A stretch of 64,000 nucleotides of DNA from Psychrobacter sp. JCM 18902 (GTDB taxonomy: Bacteria; Pseudomonadota; Gammaproteobacteria; Pseudomonadales; Moraxellaceae). The notes below the pieces were generated by a model. That model saw only the letters and a program-made list of their open reading frames with translations. It was not told where the DNA came from and made no database searches. Where the stretch lies: contig NZ_CAJHBK010000001.1 of assembly GCF_904846615.1 (NCBI RefSeq), positions 2,542,001 through 2,606,000 of the forward strand, read 5' to 3'. Position numbers and translations under genes: made by a program. Positions 16,031 to 21,957 of the stretch are shown here, in pieces; within the stretch, counting starts at the first letter, position 1; each line of letters opens with the position of its first letter.

Positions 16031-16975
16031 TCATATTGGCTGGCGCTTTCTTCCCAGTTTCATTTTTATATTCGCTAGCACCAACCCCGACAATATCAAT
16101 ATCATTGCCAGCATCTTCCACCATGTCACGACCTCTCCTGTAAGCAGCACTGAGGTTGTCATACCGAATACTGGCACCAATAGAGCAAACGGCATAACCT
16201 TAGAAGCCGTATTTTGACTAAGCAGATGCGCCCACAGTCCAAAGCCTATCAGCGTTGAGACATACACGATAAACCCAAGTGATAACCAAGACTTAAGCGA
16301 TGCCTCTGTAAACGTCGCTAGCTGCCATGCCTCGGTCTCAAATATGAGAGAAGATAGCGTTAAAATCACGCAAGCGATCAGACCACCCCAAACCACGAGA
16401 GCGAGAGCAGACAACGCGGATGCCTTATTCCTTCCAGTATTAGACGAAATAATAGCCCCGTCTGATCCTTGCTGCGTCGCTTGTGTTGAAACCTGTTTTG
16501 AAGCAATGTTACCAAAGCTCCAGCCTATGGCCGCAATCAAGATACAGACAAACCCAGCCAGAGGCATGTCACCACCAAGGTTCAACGCGATGACGCTAAG
16601 CCCTAGCACACCGACCAGCATACCGATGATTTGCATGCGACTCACTGCCTCACCCAGTATAAAATACGCCAACAATACGGTAATAAAAATTTGAATTTGT
16701 AGCAATAGTGCCGTCAATCCTGCTGATGCCCCTAAGTGCATGGCAGTAAAGACAAAAGCATACTGCATGACAAACGTACCGATAGCATAGATAAGTAATG
16801 TACGGTTAAATTTGGGCGGCTTCAGAAAGAAAACCAGTGGCACAGCGGTAAAGAAAAAACGCAGGGCGGTGAGCATTAGCGGTGGAAAGCTTTCAAGCCC
16901 CCATGCAATAAAAGTAAAGTTCACACCCCAAATAAAAGTAACCAGTACAGCCAATGCAGTGTATATAGGAGTCAT
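16031..16975 (-). CDS. EamA/DMT-family transporter
   Basis: The 314-residue protein has about ten hydrophobic segments arranged as two five-helix EamA units. It opens with ALAVLVTFIWGVNFTFIAWGL, the usual first helix of amino-acid or metabolite exporters such as the cysteine/O-acetylserine exporter EamA. The second unit is preceded by an insertion of about 25 polar residues (TQATQQGSDGAIISSNTGRN). The substrate cannot be read from sequence. Export of cysteine-related compounds would suit the nearby sulfur cluster, but that is inference. Confidence 0.85.
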   Translation of the reverse strand: MTPIYTALAVLVTFIWGVNFTFIAWGLESFPPLMLTALRFFFTAVPLVFFLKPPKFNRTLLIYAIGTFVMQYAFVFTAMHLGASAGLTALLLQIQIFITVLLAYFILGEAVSRMQIIGMLVGVLGLSVIALNLGGDMPLAGFVCILIAAIGWSFGNIASKQVSTQATQQGSDGAIISSNTGRNKASALSALALVVWGGLIACVILTLSSLIFETEAWQLATFTEASLKSWLSLGFIVYVSTLIGFGLWAHLLSQNTASKVMPFALLVPVFGMTTSVLLTGEVVTWWKMLAMILILSGLVLANIKMKLGRKRQPI

Positions 16976-17055: not shown

Positions 17056-17691
17056 TTAGAGAGCGAGCACCACACTTACAAACAATAGAACGGCAATGAG
17101 CATTAATGCTGCACCGCCTATTTTTGTAATTAACTATAGGTTATCTTGAGCTTTCCATAGATATCGACTAGCTAAAGCAAATGCTTCTGCGTAGCAAAAA
17201 TGGATCAGTAAAACCAATAGGCAAAAAGTTGAAGCTAAAATCAGAAATTGAGAAAGATAGGTCTGCTCAGTGTCGATAAATTGCGGAAATACAGCCATAG
17301 AAAATAAGATAGGTTTTGGGTTAGAAAGAGAGGTTAGCAAACCTTCTTTGAATAACCTACCAGCACTTGTACTACTCACATCTAACGTGTTACCAGAATC
17401 TAGGACAAATGATTTTCTTTTTCCAAAGGCCATTTTAAAACCCAAGTAGAATATATATTGCGCCCACTAATTGAATGGCCAAGAACATTTTCTTTGATGT
17501 TGCAATCACTAGTCCAATACTAGTAGCTGAGACAATAGCCGCGCCTAGCATTCCTAGAGAGATACCTAAGATGCCATAAGCTATTTTTTTCGACCATGCG
17601 TCAGGGAGTTTGTAATACTTAGAATTACACCGGGGCCTGGGCTAGCAATAGTGGCAGAGGCTATAAGGATATATAGGGCAATGTTATTCAT
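17056..17691 (-). pseudogene. Disrupted LysE/RhtB-type amino-acid exporter
   Basis: The reconstructed product (about 212 residues, normal for LysE) begins MNNIALYILIASATIASPGPG at the ATG at 17691, with the family motif ASPGPGV. Three lesions are visible. A run of seven A (17584-17590) needs one more base to keep frame. The AIYIL-LGFKM junction near 17453 lacks two bases (expected AIYILYLGFKM). An in-frame TAG at 17134-17136 precedes a continuing helix, LITKIGGAALMLIAVLLF, that ends at a natural stop at 17056. The longest intact piece is 17134-17445. Sequence error could explain one lesion but not easily three. Confidence 0.88.
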
Positions 17692-17935
17692 TAAAATACG
17701 ACTACCAGAGTAAGCTTTTGTTGGCATTCTAGCATTTAATTGATATTTTAAACTATGCTTATTTTAGAAAGGACAGTCATTCCGAAAAACAAAAGAGTAT
17801 ACCCCGAGGGAACCAGCTACTTCACCCTTTAAATCCATTAATAGACCACTTAAAGCAGACTGATATAAGAGAACCACTCAAAATAAACTTTTGAACGATC
17901 TAAACGTTGCAGTGTAAACGCGCCAATATAAAGAC

Positions 17936-18769
17936 TTAAACCAATCCCTTATACAGAAAGTAACACCCTACAACCGTTAATAACAACGCAAAGCATTTTT
18001 TCAATAATTGCGGTGATAGTATATGAGCAACTTTCGCGCCTAGCTTGGCGGTGAAAAAGCTCATGATACTGATCCCTAAAAAGGCATAAATGTGCACAAA
18101 GCCAATGGTATTAGGCACATCAATTCGTTGCTGCATCCCAAAGAACATAAAACCTAATGCACCAGCAATGGCAATCGGCAGACCACAAGCTGCTGAGGTG
18201 CCAACGGCTTTTTGCATCACAACACTATACCGCGTGAGATAAGGCACGGTTAAGCTACCGCCGCCAATACCGAAAATGGCAGAAGCGATACCGATAACCC
18301 CACCTGCTGCTAATTGCCTAGGTTTTGAAGGCAATTGTGTATTAGCATCGTCGGTACTACTAGAATTGGTAGCATGATTAGCAACCTGTTTTTTGCCACC
18401 GAAAAACATCTTGTAGGCGACCCACAGCAAAAACACCCCAACAATGAGTTGAAGATACAGCCCAGATATCTGCCCTGCAATCCCTGCCCCTAAAAAGCAA
18501 CCAATCGCTAAGCCTGGTGCCAGATTTTTGAAGACAGGCCACATGACTGCGCCTTTTTTATTGTGTGCCATGAGCGAGCTGATCGAGGTGACAATGATGG
18601 TCGCCAATGACGTCCCCAATGCCAAATGCATGATATTGTCAGGGCTGTAACCCATTCGCGTAAAGACGATGAATAATAATGGCACGATAATTGTGCCACC
18701 GCCCACACCAAATAGCCCCGCAGCAAATCCTGCTAGCGCGCCTATGATTAAAAAAATGATTAATTCCAC
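17936..18769 (-). CDS. TauE/SafE family sulfite/anion exporter
   Basis: The 277-residue protein has eight or so membrane segments and two family half-repeats, each with a glycine-rich loop: LFGVGGGTIIVPLL (about 19-32) and IFGIGGGSLTVPYL (about 164-177). TauE/SafE members export sulfite, sulfoacetate or related organosulfur anions. The start codon is GTG without an evident ribosome site. It lies 77 bases downstream of the flavin reductase gene on the same strand, at the end of the methionine synthase cluster, so a role in sulfur compound handling is likely. Confidence 0.87.
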   Translation of the reverse strand: MELIIFLIIGALAGFAAGLFGVGGGTIIVPLLFIVFTRMGYSPDNIMHLALGTSLATIIVTSISSLMAHNKKGAVMWPVFKNLAPGLAIGCFLGAGIAGQISGLYLQLIVGVFLLWVAYKMFFGGKKQVANHATNSSSTDDANTQLPSKPRQLAAGGVIGIASAIFGIGGGSLTVPYLTRYSVVMQKAVGTSAACGLPIAIAGALGFMFFGMQQRIDVPNTIGFVHIYAFLGISIMSFFTAKLGAKVAHILSPQLLKKCFALLLTVVGCYFLYKGLV

Positions 18770-18846
18770 GGGATATTTACTTCTTATATAGAGTTAGTAC
18801 GATGGTTATTTTAGTTCAGTGACAATCAATCAGTTAAAAAGCCAAC

Positions 18847-19347
18847 TTAAGCGATTTCTACTTGATCCACTTGACCAACCCGAGAATAGGCACGATTAAA
18901 ATACACCAAACTCTCCTCTTGCTCACTTTGTCTAATGGCGACCACCCGGCACATGAAAACACTGTGCGTGCCCACTTGCTGAATGTCCTCAATCTCACAA
19001 TCAAAACTGACCAACGCATCTTCTAAAACGGGAGCGCCTGTTTTGAGCGGTGACCAAGAGCCATATTCAAATCGCTCTTGTGAACTCAATTTGGAGGCAA
19101 AAGCGTTAGATATTGATTCGTGCTGTGCGCCTAAAACATTGACACTTAACGTTTTATTTTCAATAAAATGGGCATGTGAGCGCGACGTCTGATTCATGCA
19201 AACCAGCAAGGTTGGCGGTGTATCGGTAACGCTACACACCGCAGATGCGGTAAACCCATGAGTACCAGCGCTGCCTTCTGTGGTAATGACATTGACCGCT
19301 GTTGTTAACAAAGACATACCATCTCTAAAATCGGTGGCTTCAATCAT
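18847..19347 (-). CDS. Flavin reductase-like domain protein
   Basis: The 166-residue protein has the flavin-reductase-like split-barrel fold typical of HpaC/NtaB-type NAD(P)H:FMN reductases: an N-terminal FRDGMSLLTTAVNVITTEG, then GFTASAVCSVTDTPPTLLVCMN (about 30-51), then SVNVLGAQH, and FDCEIEDIQQVGTHSVFMCRVV. Such proteins supply reduced flavin to partner monooxygenases. It has a strong AGGAG ribosome site and lies 135 bases after the MesD-type synthase. A link to that oxygen-requiring system is an inference from position. Confidence 0.88.
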   Translation of the reverse strand: MIEATDFRDGMSLLTTAVNVITTEGSAGTHGFTASAVCSVTDTPPTLLVCMNQTSRSHAHFIENKTLSVNVLGAQHESISNAFASKLSSQERFEYGSWSPLKTGAPVLEDALVSFDCEIEDIQQVGTHSVFMCRVVAIRQSEQEESLVYFNRAYSRVGQVDQVEIA

Positions 19348-19482
19348 GACTTAACTCCTAAATTTTAAATCTTTAAGTTCATTGATAACTGAGGTCACTC
19401 ATGAGTTTAAACAAGCTAGTATAGACGGGTTAAAAACCCAACCTATAAAAGCTAAATTTTGCATCAGTTTATTCAATGAACC

Positions 19483-20538
19483 CTAAGCGGTCAGTTCTTG
19501 ACGCACGATTGCCGCGCCAGCACTTAACGCTTGCAGCTTACCTCGTGCCACTTGTCGAGACAACGGTGCCATGCCGCAGTTGGTTGAAGGATACAGCTTA
19601 TCCGCATCGACGAATTGCAAGGCTTTACGTAGCGTATTGGCCACTTCTTCAGGGGTCTCAATGGTATTGGTTGCCACATCAATGGCACCAATCATCACTT
19701 TTTTACCGCGGATCAATTCAATCAAATCCATCGGTACATGTGAGTTTTGACATTCTAAAGAGACAATATCAATATTCGACTGTTGCAATTTAGGGAATGC
19801 TTGCTCGTATTGACGCCACTCTGAACCCAGCGTCTTTTTCCAATCGGTATTGGCTTTGATGCCGTAGCCGTAGCATATATGCACCGCCGTTTCACACTTT
19901 AGACCTTCAATGGCACGCTCTAACGTGGCAATACCCCAGTCGTTGACGTCATCAAAGAACACATTAAATGCAGGCTCATCGAATTGGATAATATCCACCC
20001 CAGCCGCTTCTAATTCTCTGGCTTCTTGATTTAAGATTTTAGCAAATTCCCACGCCAATTTTTCACGGCTTTTATAATGACCATCATACAAGGTATCAAT
20101 CATGGTCATCGGACCAGGCAATGCCCATTTGATCGGCTGATCGGTTTGTGCACGTAAAAACTTAGCATCATCAACAAATACAGGCTTTTGACGGCTTACC
20201 GCGCCCACGACTGACGGCACACTGGCATCATAACGATTACGAATGCGCACGGTCTCGCGCTTCTCAAAATCGACGCCATCCAAATGTTCAATAAAGGTGG
20301 TCACAAAATGCTGACGAGTTTGCTCGCCATCACTGACAATATCAATGCCTGCATGCACTTGTTCTTGCAATGTCAAACGTAGCGCATCTTGTTTGGCTTC
20401 AAGCAGTTGCTCACCTTCCAATGCCCAAGGTGACCAGATTTTTTCAGGTTCTGCAAGCCAAGAAGGTTTCGGTAAGCTGCCAGCCGTTGACGTCGGTAAT
20501 AACTTTTGTGTCGGTAATAATATTGTCATACGATTCAT
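19483..20538 (-). CDS. mesD: Core (folate-independent) methionine synthase, MesD type
   Basis: This 351-residue protein matches only the C-terminal catalytic half of cobalamin-independent methionine synthase MetE and lacks the N-terminal folate-binding half. The zinc ligands are conserved: His220 and Cys222 (VHICYGYG), Glu262 (VSLECQ) and Cys321 (STNCGMAP). The MesD family of aerobic bacteria makes methionine without methyl-folate or cobalamin and needs the DUF1852 protein and oxygen; here a DUF1852 gene lies 45 bases upstream. The in-frame ATG at 20529, spaced better from AAGAAG, may be the real start. Confidence 0.9.
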   Translation of the reverse strand: MNRMTILLPTQKLLPTSTAGSLPKPSWLAEPEKIWSPWALEGEQLLEAKQDALRLTLQEQVHAGIDIVSDGEQTRQHFVTTFIEHLDGVDFEKRETVRIRNRYDASVPSVVGAVSRQKPVFVDDAKFLRAQTDQPIKWALPGPMTMIDTLYDGHYKSREKLAWEFAKILNQEARELEAAGVDIIQFDEPAFNVFFDDVNDWGIATLERAIEGLKCETAVHICYGYGIKANTDWKKTLGSEWRQYEQAFPKLQQSNIDIVSLECQNSHVPMDLIELIRGKKVMIGAIDVATNTIETPEEVANTLRKALQFVDADKLYPSTNCGMAPLSRQVARGKLQALSAGAAIVRQELTA

Positions 20539-20583
20539 CTTCTTATTAATTTGTATTTTACTTTTCGGCTACATTTATATTGG

Positions 20584-21621
20584 CTATGCTGCGGCTTTTT
20601 TCACAGCTTCTTTTTGCACAGTGTAGCTGGCAACATCGTAGCTTGCTGCCCACTCTTCAAGAATAGCTTTATAAGGCTTGATAAACTGCTCTTCCGTAAA
20701 TTTACCTTGCGTCACTGCCATTTGGCTGCGCTCTTCGCGATCATATACGATTTGAGTCAGCGAATAATCTTGGTACTTCAAGCTCGGTTGATACACTTGA
20801 CCGGCTGCCGAATTGGCATTATAAATCTCAGGTCGGTAGATTTTTTGAAACGTCTCCATGGTACTAATCGCACTGATCAGCTCAAGATCGGTGTAATCGC
20901 TCAGCAAGTCACCCGCAAAATAAAATGCTAATGGCGCGGCGCTACCCGTAGGCATAAAGTAGCGAACGGTTAAGCCCATTTTGGAAAAGTACTCATCGGT
21001 TAGTGACCCTTTGTTCAAAGAGCAGCCATCTTGTTTGTATTCAACGCCCAATACAGGGTGCTGATTGGTCGTACGCTGATAGGTTTTACTGGTGGAAACA
21101 CTCAAACAAATCACAGGATTTTTAGTGAAATTAGCTTGGTAAACTTCTGAATTCAATAAATACTGAAACAGTTTGCCATGTAAGTCACCGAAATCTACTG
21201 GCGGCGCAGATGATGGATGTTTATCGAAATGGTCTAATAAGACGACGCTAAAGTCATAATCGCGCACATAAGATGAGAAACTGTTGCCAATCATACCGTC
21301 AATACGGGTGTTTTCTTTATGATCCACAATCGTTGTTTGCAGCATCTCGATGATAGGGAAAGTATCGCCATTTCCTGCAACATCCATGTCGACAGAAATA
21401 ATATCAACCTCAACAGAATAACGATCTGCGGTGGGATTATCCCAATGTGCCAAGGCATTAAAACGATTATTGATCATTCTTAACGTTTTGCTTAAGTTCT
21501 CTTGACGATGCTCGCCACGCGCCAAATTCGCAAAGTTCGTCGTCAGACGCGTGCTATTTGCAGGATGATAGTTTTCATCAAAACGAATGCGTTTAATTGC
21601 ACAACTAAATTCTTTACTCAT
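20584..21621 (-). CDS. mesX: DUF1852 protein (MesX type), partner of the core methionine synthase
   Basis: The 345-residue protein begins MSKEFSCAIKRIRFDENY and has the DUF1852 character: no signal peptide, no membrane segment, and conserved stretches such as NFANLARGEHRQENL and VEVDIISVDMDVAGNGD. Genetic work on MesD systems shows this family is required for methionine synthesis by MesD, but its chemistry is unknown. It is the first gene of the minus-strand unit, followed by mesD. MetR-like palindromes lie 54-130 bases upstream. Confidence 0.88.
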   Translation of the reverse strand: MSKEFSCAIKRIRFDENYHPANSTRLTTNFANLARGEHRQENLSKTLRMINNRFNALAHWDNPTADRYSVEVDIISVDMDVAGNGDTFPIIEMLQTTIVDHKENTRIDGMIGNSFSSYVRDYDFSVVLLDHFDKHPSSAPPVDFGDLHGKLFQYLLNSEVYQANFTKNPVICLSVSTSKTYQRTTNQHPVLGVEYKQDGCSLNKGSLTDEYFSKMGLTVRYFMPTGSAAPLAFYFAGDLLSDYTDLELISAISTMETFQKIYRPEIYNANSAAGQVYQPSLKYQDYSLTQIVYDREERSQMAVTQGKFTEEQFIKPYKAILEEWAASYDVASYTVQKEAVKKAAA

Positions 21622-21674: not shown

Positions 21675-21692
21675 GTATGAGGTGAATCATAC
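21675..21692. promoter_or_regulatory. Palindrome overlapping the proposed mesX -10 element
   Basis: GTATGA, six bases, TCATAC form a perfect 6-base inverted repeat about 55 bases upstream of the mesX start. It overlaps a TATGAT hexamer on the minus strand, so a bound protein would touch the polymerase site. The core TGA-N6-TCA loosely resembles a MetR half-site pair. Confidence 0.45.
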
Positions 21693-21736
21693 CTAAACTA
21701 TTACATGAATAAAAACGATACTATTTAAATATAAGA

Positions 21737-21749
21737 TGAATATAATTCA
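21737..21749. promoter_or_regulatory. MetR-like operator, TGAA-N5-TTCA
   Basis: TGAATATAATTCA is an exact match to the E. coli MetR consensus TGAA-N5-TTCA and extends to an ATGAAT/ATTCAT palindrome (21736-21750). It lies about 115 bases upstream of mesX, a position suited to activation. The match is seen; the regulator is inferred. Confidence 0.55.
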
Positions 21750-21914
21750 TGTTAATAGATTTATGGTATGACATGAGATTGGATAGCGGAGACTTTATGA
21801 CTTACTCGATAGGATCATTGAGCAAAAAATAAGCCTGTAGAAAAATGAGCTACGCTAAAGAAAGCATAAAGAAAATTTCGATAAACTAACTAACGAATAT
21901 AAGGATTCTCTCAT

Positions 21915-21957
21915 TAAAAAAGCCGAAACTTATTTTCTAAGTCTCAGACTTTTTTTT
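21915..21957 (-). terminator. Terminator of the yceI-like gene
   Basis: Read on the minus strand, GAGACTTA and TAAGTTTC pair (one G-U) around GAAAA, flanked by A-runs and T-runs. It lies about 40 bases after the yceI-like stop and may work in both directions. Confidence 0.6.

Follow-up and report, generated by a model that had tools for sequence, protein, structure and literature searches.

The window analysed here is the whole stretch of 64,000 nucleotides at positions 2,542,001 to 2,606,000 of contig NZ_CAJHBK010000001.1 of Psychrobacter sp. JCM 18902. It carries the genes mesX and mesD, followed on the same strand by a flavin reductase gene and a gene for a TauE-type transporter, and this unit represents a further instance of the MesX/MesD system for methionine synthesis already described in the literature. 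We consider it probable that the unit is a homocysteine-controlled methionine synthase operon that is independent of B12 and methyl-folate and operates only aerobically, in which MesX would use reduced flavin and oxygen to provide the methyl group for MesD. Family membership, gene order, a conserved operator-like box and a conserved MetR-like gene were established by sequence comparison. The features concerned are listed below.

20584-21621, minus strand: mesX (DUF1852, PF08908 'Putative oxygenase MesX'), 345 aa; Pfam 578.9 bits, cut-off 25
19483-20538, minus strand: mesD (MetE catalytic half, folate-independent core methionine synthase), 351 aa; PF01717 132 bits, cut-off 21
18847-19347, minus strand: flavin reductase (PF01613), 166 aa; 135.6 bits, cut-off 27
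17936-18769, minus strand: TauE/SafE-family membrane transporter, 277 aa, GTG start; PF01925 185.9 bits, cut-off 32.6
21736-21750, no strand: MetR-type palindrome ATGAATATAATTCAT upstream of mesX, matching the 15-bp consensus of Leyn 2014
21675-21692, minus strand: palindrome GTATGA-N6-TCATAC, a possible operator, from the consensus of 50 Psychrobacter upstream regions
21923-21947, minus strand: terminator-like hairpin 3' of yceI, from a consensus scan

The original prediction, made by a model from the letters of this DNA, had placed four genes on one strand at these positions, and the reading frames and Pfam matches bear this out, including the DUF1852 gene lying next to a gene for half a MetE protein. 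The intergenic gaps are 45 nt between mesX and mesD, 135 nt between mesD and the reductase gene, and 77 nt between the latter and tauE, and the four genes may share a single transcript.

At E 0.001, PF01717 is the only Pfam family matched by MesD, with a single hit, thus the protein is without a folate-binding domain. It scores 705.2 bits on model NF006589 (cut-off 392) and 664.7 bits with its solved relative 3rpd, and is 88% identical over 345 aa to the MesD of Acinetobacter baylyi (locus L047). Price 2021 described closeness to ACIAD3523 by a criterion of 560 bits, or approximately 72% identity (PMC7857596); here closeness was judged by the identity to L047. The zinc ligands are H220, C222, E262 and C321, of which E262 and C321 align to those of MetE (1t7l), and the HxC pair formed by H220 and C222 was set by eye, since the phmmer alignment was wrong in this part. 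The predicted MetE catalytic half with intact zinc ligands and no folate domain is therefore present. In related bacteria, MesD requires MesX and oxygen, and neither MetF nor cobalamin (PMC7857596), in agreement with what the original prediction stated about the published genetics of this family, and MesD homologues have been linked to growth under N2O (PMC13059711). The genome itself holds a B12-dependent MetH, and a search for other PF01717 matches found none besides MesD, so no MetE was found, which leaves MesD as the one methionine synthase without B12 dependence detected in this genome. Elsewhere, Alcaligenes faecalis (L048) has a 763-aa frame with a MetE-type match directly upstream of mesX-mesD, which is 23% identical to MesD over 323 aa. 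A divergent mesX-msuE-mesD variant occurs in genome G180 (L158); its MesD is 57% identical to that of the window, and separate MesX pieces, one with an internal stop, are located at other sites in the same genome.

To place the unit in context, we compared mesX loci from several samples. The 80 named loci closest to the window MesX (30 from Psychrobacter and 50 others) were picked by similarity and are not a fair sample. A further 120 loci comprised 47 from outside Moraxellaceae, drawn from a phylum sample, 53 from other Moraxellaceae, taken from 53 of the 57 genomes carrying MesX, and 20 from Psychrobacter, hand-picked from 19 genomes, with another 30 short loci left uncounted. MesX was present in 49 of the 397 genomes of the phylum sample, two of which, G005 and the own genome, both Psychrobacter, were excluded. 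Removal of exact duplicates, defined by mesX plus 150 bp upstream, left 46 Psychrobacter, 46 other Moraxellaceae, 46 phylum-sample and 50 other named loci. Neighbours were called by tblastn with the window proteins, and required a flank of at least 2.2 kb for the reductase and at least 3.4 kb for TauE. MesX was detected by PF08908 in 97 of 100 Psychrobacter genomes, and mesD lies within 1.8 kb downstream of mesX at 45/46 Psychrobacter, 43/46 other Moraxellaceae, 46/46 phylum-sample and 48/50 named loci. The gene order of the window recurs across nearly all Psychrobacter loci, and is thus not due to chance. One Psychrobacter genome (G072) has two mesX loci, L225 and L226, and at the second of these mesD and the reductase are found only as low-scoring pieces and TauE at full score. 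Of note, in a record titled Bacillus subtilis (L071), mesX, mesD and a reductase gene form a block that is similar to the Pseudochrobactrum locus L079 in layout and in the identity of the reductase (42%, and 43% in L079), and this record is possibly mislabelled or contaminated.

Within Moraxellaceae, the flavin reductase is a constant partner of mesXD. A PF01613 reductase follows mesD at 43/43 unique Psychrobacter loci, 45/45 other Moraxellaceae loci and 29/50 other named loci. The window protein has 21 distinct solved relatives and is nearest to RutF (212.4 bits) and HpaC (171.4 bits), in both cases below the equivalog cut-off (254.75 and 205.95, respectively). Several loci carry a reductase of another family, PF03358. 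It is located on the same strand and immediately upstream of mesX in L060, L080, L136, L138 and L139. In L066 it lies approximately 0.5 kb upstream of mesX, and in L158 it separates mesX from mesD. All three PF03358 reductases tested, out of the seven loci carrying one, passed the MsuE equivalog cut-off. PF01613 and PF03358 are unrelated folds, and this therefore looks like a swap of one source of reduced flavin for another. Since two unrelated reductase families occur at the locus, reduced flavin is a likely cosubstrate of MesX, and the adjacent reductase would probably supply it. The MsuE-type replacement is an addition of the present survey to the published system and appears to be the best comparative evidence here for the use of reduced flavin by MesX, although it is indirect, since neither reductase family is represented at most phylum-sample loci. 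Price 2021 had already noted a putative flavin reductase that is often nearby and predicted that a central metabolite would undergo a redox reaction (PMC7857596). The reduced-flavin and oxygen-dependent step fed by the adjacent reductase, as first suggested for this DNA, was thus already contained in the published work, and the MsuE-type reductases strengthen it.

The upstream region suggests possible control by homocysteine. The core TGAA-N5-TTCA occurs once in the 64-kb window, in the box at 21736-21750, and this MetR-type box is kept at -112 to -143 of mesX in Psychrobacter. The exact core is found within 300 bp upstream of mesX at 37/46 unique Psychrobacter, 27/46 other Moraxellaceae, 9/46 phylum-sample and 13/50 named loci, compared to a background, per 288 start positions, of 0.003, 0.015, 0.012 and 0.015, respectively. 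Ten of all 50 Psychrobacter loci are without the exact core and have a one-mismatch version at the same distance. The median pairwise identity of the 50 Psychrobacter upstream regions is 0.67, and most columns of the box reach at least 90%. In A. baumannii (L046) three exact cores lie upstream of mesX; upstream of mesX at the TauE-bearing Acinetobacter loci L036, L037 and L041 no exact core was found. The second palindrome, GTATGA-N6-TCATAC, sits between the MetR-type box and mesX and is likewise kept in Psychrobacter.

A MetR-like LysR protein was found once per genome in 46/46 chosen Moraxellaceae genomes (E <1e-30), and the same search in 14 control genomes gave a match at E <1e-30 in E. 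coli only. The MetR-like gene of the own genome has two one-mismatch boxes just upstream, and MetR-like genes adjoin mesX in several other lineages too. The conservation of the MetR-type box together with a MetR-like regulator in Moraxellaceae is new here, and such a regulator would bind at the predicted box. In two A. baumannii strains, B12 lowers expression of the DUF1852 gene (log2 -8.33 and -8.07), and in one strain that of a flavin reductase gene two locus tags from mesX (log2 -2.52; PMC12892962). Judged from the locus tags and the gene order in L046, the latter is presumably the mesD neighbour. Since MetR responds to homocysteine (Leyn 2014, PMC4239095), repression by B12 through MetH would be the natural reading. 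A scan of the window stretch and of 7 loci for cobalamin riboswitches gave no match, and a homocysteine-sensing MetR-type switch would explain a riboswitch-free shutdown by B12 in Acinetobacter.

Taken together, the preferred reading would run as follows. Homocysteine that builds up when MetH is short of B12 would cause the MetR-like activator to switch the unit on. MesX, with oxygen and reduced flavin from the adjacent reductase, would then oxidise a common central metabolite to yield a methyl group, which would be kept on MesX or on a small carrier until MesD transfers it to zinc-bound homocysteine. TauE would stand outside this chemistry, as an accessory of particular lineages that moves sulfur in the form of sulfate or sulfite. 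MesX would thus be a putative oxygenase that gives a transferable methyl group to MesD. Among 247 distinct MesX sequences, H148, C172, H188 and E194 are invariant in all, as are many Arg, Asp and Glu residues, and C172 is the sole invariant cysteine. A more far-reaching version, which we consider unlikely, would make MesX the first member of a new FMNH2- and O2-dependent class that excises a methyl group from a central metabolite. The protein would have an unassigned fold, the methyl group might be held on C172 or an invariant histidine before reaching MesD, reductases of unrelated families would have been paired with MesX independently, and TauE-type exporters would remove an anionic by-product.

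Several observations weigh against the preferred reading. A comparison of MesX with solved structures gave no detected fold match, flavoprotein folds included. A PF01613 reductase follows mesD at just 1/46 unique phylum-sample loci, and a PF03358 reductase lies beside mesX at no fewer than 4 of the 47 (at least G346, G437 and G192, which belong to one genus, and G180); a reductase at the locus is thus exceptional outside Moraxellaceae and not obligatory. With regard to neighbourhoods, the originally proposed co-occurrence of DUF1852 and flavin reductase genes therefore stands throughout Moraxellaceae but seldom elsewhere, and that with TauE holds only in part. E. coli has flavin reductases of its own. 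Complementation of E. coli by mesXD, as described, used no dedicated reductase (PMC7857596), so that activity without the adjacent gene, which if full was proposed at the outset as a refuting result, has been reported, in a host with reductases. The much smaller effect of B12 on the reductase gene than on mesX suggests that the reductase may have its own promoter. The exact core is missing upstream of mesX at 19/46 unique other Moraxellaceae, 37/46 phylum-sample and 37/50 other named loci, A. baylyi L047 among them. Genome-wide, 7 box sites were counted in the own genome against 7 in the control, hence no enrichment. The MetR-like protein scores below the curated MetR cut-off in 46/46 genomes (277.9 versus 382 bits in the own genome), and Leyn 2014 describes Moraxellaceae (4 genomes) as lacking MetR (PMC4239095), whereas here a MetR-like protein was found in every genome chosen.

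That no flavoprotein fold match was detected also fits a different view of MesX, as a non-haem iron oxygenase with H148, H188 and E194 as putative metal site, for which the reductase would provide electrons, or with the reductase serving another enzyme. The invariance of these residues and the rarity of an adjacent reductase at phylum-sample loci agree with this, but the presence of two unrelated flavin reductase families beside mesX or mesD argues against it, and we regard it as rather unlikely. That the reductase serves an unrelated oxygenase altogether, and is located next to mesD by descent only, would be consistent with its profile being closest to RutF and HpaC, with its presence at few loci outside Moraxellaceae, and with the B12 response of the A. 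baumannii reductase gene, which is far weaker than that of mesX (PMC12892962). However, every one of the 88 unique Moraxellaceae loci whose flank is long enough (43 + 45) carries the reductase, and that of the window falls under the RutF and HpaC cut-offs and is the sole PF01613 match in its genome, which makes this view very unlikely.

The original prediction went further and put forward, as an inference, an oxidation with reduced flavin and oxygen that releases sulfite and leaves a methyl group, using all four parts. In such a chain MesX would be a flavin monooxygenase of a methylated sulfur compound such as methanesulfonate, with sulfite leaving through TauE and the methyl group going to MesD. 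The parts do adjoin one another, the TauE neighbours of mesX fall into several clades and are more frequent than expected by chance, and the second type of reductase seen at some loci is of the MsuE family, which was named after methanesulfonate use. However, with known enzymes, flavin monooxygenation of a methyl sulfonate yields formaldehyde and no transferable methyl group, and most loci outside Psychrobacter have no TauE. In addition, mesX and mesD are enough to rescue metE and metF mutants of E. coli in M9 glucose medium, for which MgSO4 is the one sulfur source listed (PMC7857596), and B12 represses mesX, yet in the A. baumannii strain with the reductase data it induces sfnG (log2 3.99), msuE (3.64), ssuD (2.81) and tauD (2.78) (PMC12892962). 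The idea that a methylated sulfur donor gives off sulfite is consequently not supported, and we consider this chain highly improbable.

What, then, does TauE do? As a following gene on the same strand, it is found at 36/40 Psychrobacter, 9/45 other Moraxellaceae, 0/45 phylum-sample and 3/50 named loci, the last three all from Acinetobacter. On the opposite strand nearby, it occurs at none of the Psychrobacter or other Moraxellaceae loci, at 8/45 phylum-sample loci and at 3/50 named loci; a ninth phylum-sample case (L146) has a flank too short for the 45-locus count and brings the total to 9/47. PF01925 proteins are common, with 1 to 11 copies in each of the 48/48 genomes tested. Nevertheless, the 9/47 phylum genomes with TauE near mesX, in one of which (L126) it lies 2.9 kb away, compare with 0.34 expected by chance in a 7-kb counting window; counted by genus, it is 5/27 against 0.19 expected. 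The estimate is rough, and relatives are not independent (5 of the 9 are from one genus). In a tree of 25 of the 65 neighbour proteins, the window protein and 18 chosen paralogs, the Moraxellaceae neighbours, which lie downstream on the same strand, make up one clade. A second clade, of upstream and divergent genes, comes from genus g28, Vibrio penaeicida and two Pseudoalteromonas records. A third group joins neighbours from f9 and f31 genomes, located downstream on the opposite strand, to one paralog, and a single neighbour stands alone. The deeper order of the tree is unsure because several branches are long. TauE thus seems to have been recruited to mesXD more than once, an addition of this survey to the published system, which suggests a loose functional tie and not an essential part.

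The sulfite label for this transporter is unsafe, as the TauE family includes both exporters and a sulfate importer (PMC11535334). TauE might import sulfate or another sulfur anion for homocysteine synthesis and be carried with mesXD for co-regulation, apart from the methyl step, a possibility that we rate somewhat below an even chance. The optional presence of TauE at the mesXD locus and the rescue of an E. coli sulfate-transport mutant by a Pseudomonas fluorescens homologue (PMC11535334) favour import, whereas the exporters in the same family speak against it, and a search by sequence found no solved relative of the window TauE. Import is compatible with the preferred reading of MesX and MesD, and both can hold together.

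As regards the flanks, the hairpin at 21923-21947 may split yceI from mesX; the scan gave 5 sites and shuffled sequence a mean of 4.4, which makes the evidence for it weak. Between tauE and an EamA-family transporter gene (16031-16975), positions 17134-17700 on the minus strand hold a broken-frame remnant that, by eye only, has the look of a LysE/RhtB-type exporter. The best NCBIfam model for the EamA-family protein is an O-acetylserine/cysteine exporter (164.8 bits, under the cut-off of 472), and in L002-L004 and L024, which are close relatives, an EamA-family gene likewise adjoins the locus.

Which methyl donor MesD uses is a question of interest for one-carbon metabolism, as this enzyme forms methionine with neither methyl-folate nor B12. 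Our comparisons limit the candidates, in that they make reduced flavin a likely cosubstrate and a sulfur-borne donor unlikely, and the invariant C172, H148, H188 and E194 are concrete residues for work on the mechanism of MesX.

Among known enzymes, MesD shares its catalytic domain and zinc site with MetE, but is without the folate-binding half, and methyl-folate is not its donor (PMC7857596). The FMN-dependent two-component monooxygenases, with MsuE/SsuE or HpaC/RutF reductases, are similar in that a small flavin reductase is encoded beside an oxygen-requiring enzyme. They differ in that MesX gave no detected similarity to known oxygenase components, a sequence search found no solved relatives of MesX, and its product would be a methyl group. 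The MetR regulon of Leyn 2014 resembles the window in its 15-bp ATGAA-N5-TTCAT operator and in a regulated PF08908-metE2 unit, which belongs to this regulon in five to seven taxonomic groups (PMC4239095). The unit matches the MesD/MesX system of A. baylyi (ACIAD3523/ACIAD3524) and Sphingomonas koreensis, with the same families, the same mesX-mesD order and a nearby flavin reductase (PMC7857596). Compared to A. baylyi L047, MesX is 69%, MesD 88% and the reductase 68% identical. The window differs in its same-strand TauE gene, of which none was found at L047 and which has 0 occurrences in the main text of Price 2021 (PMC7857596).

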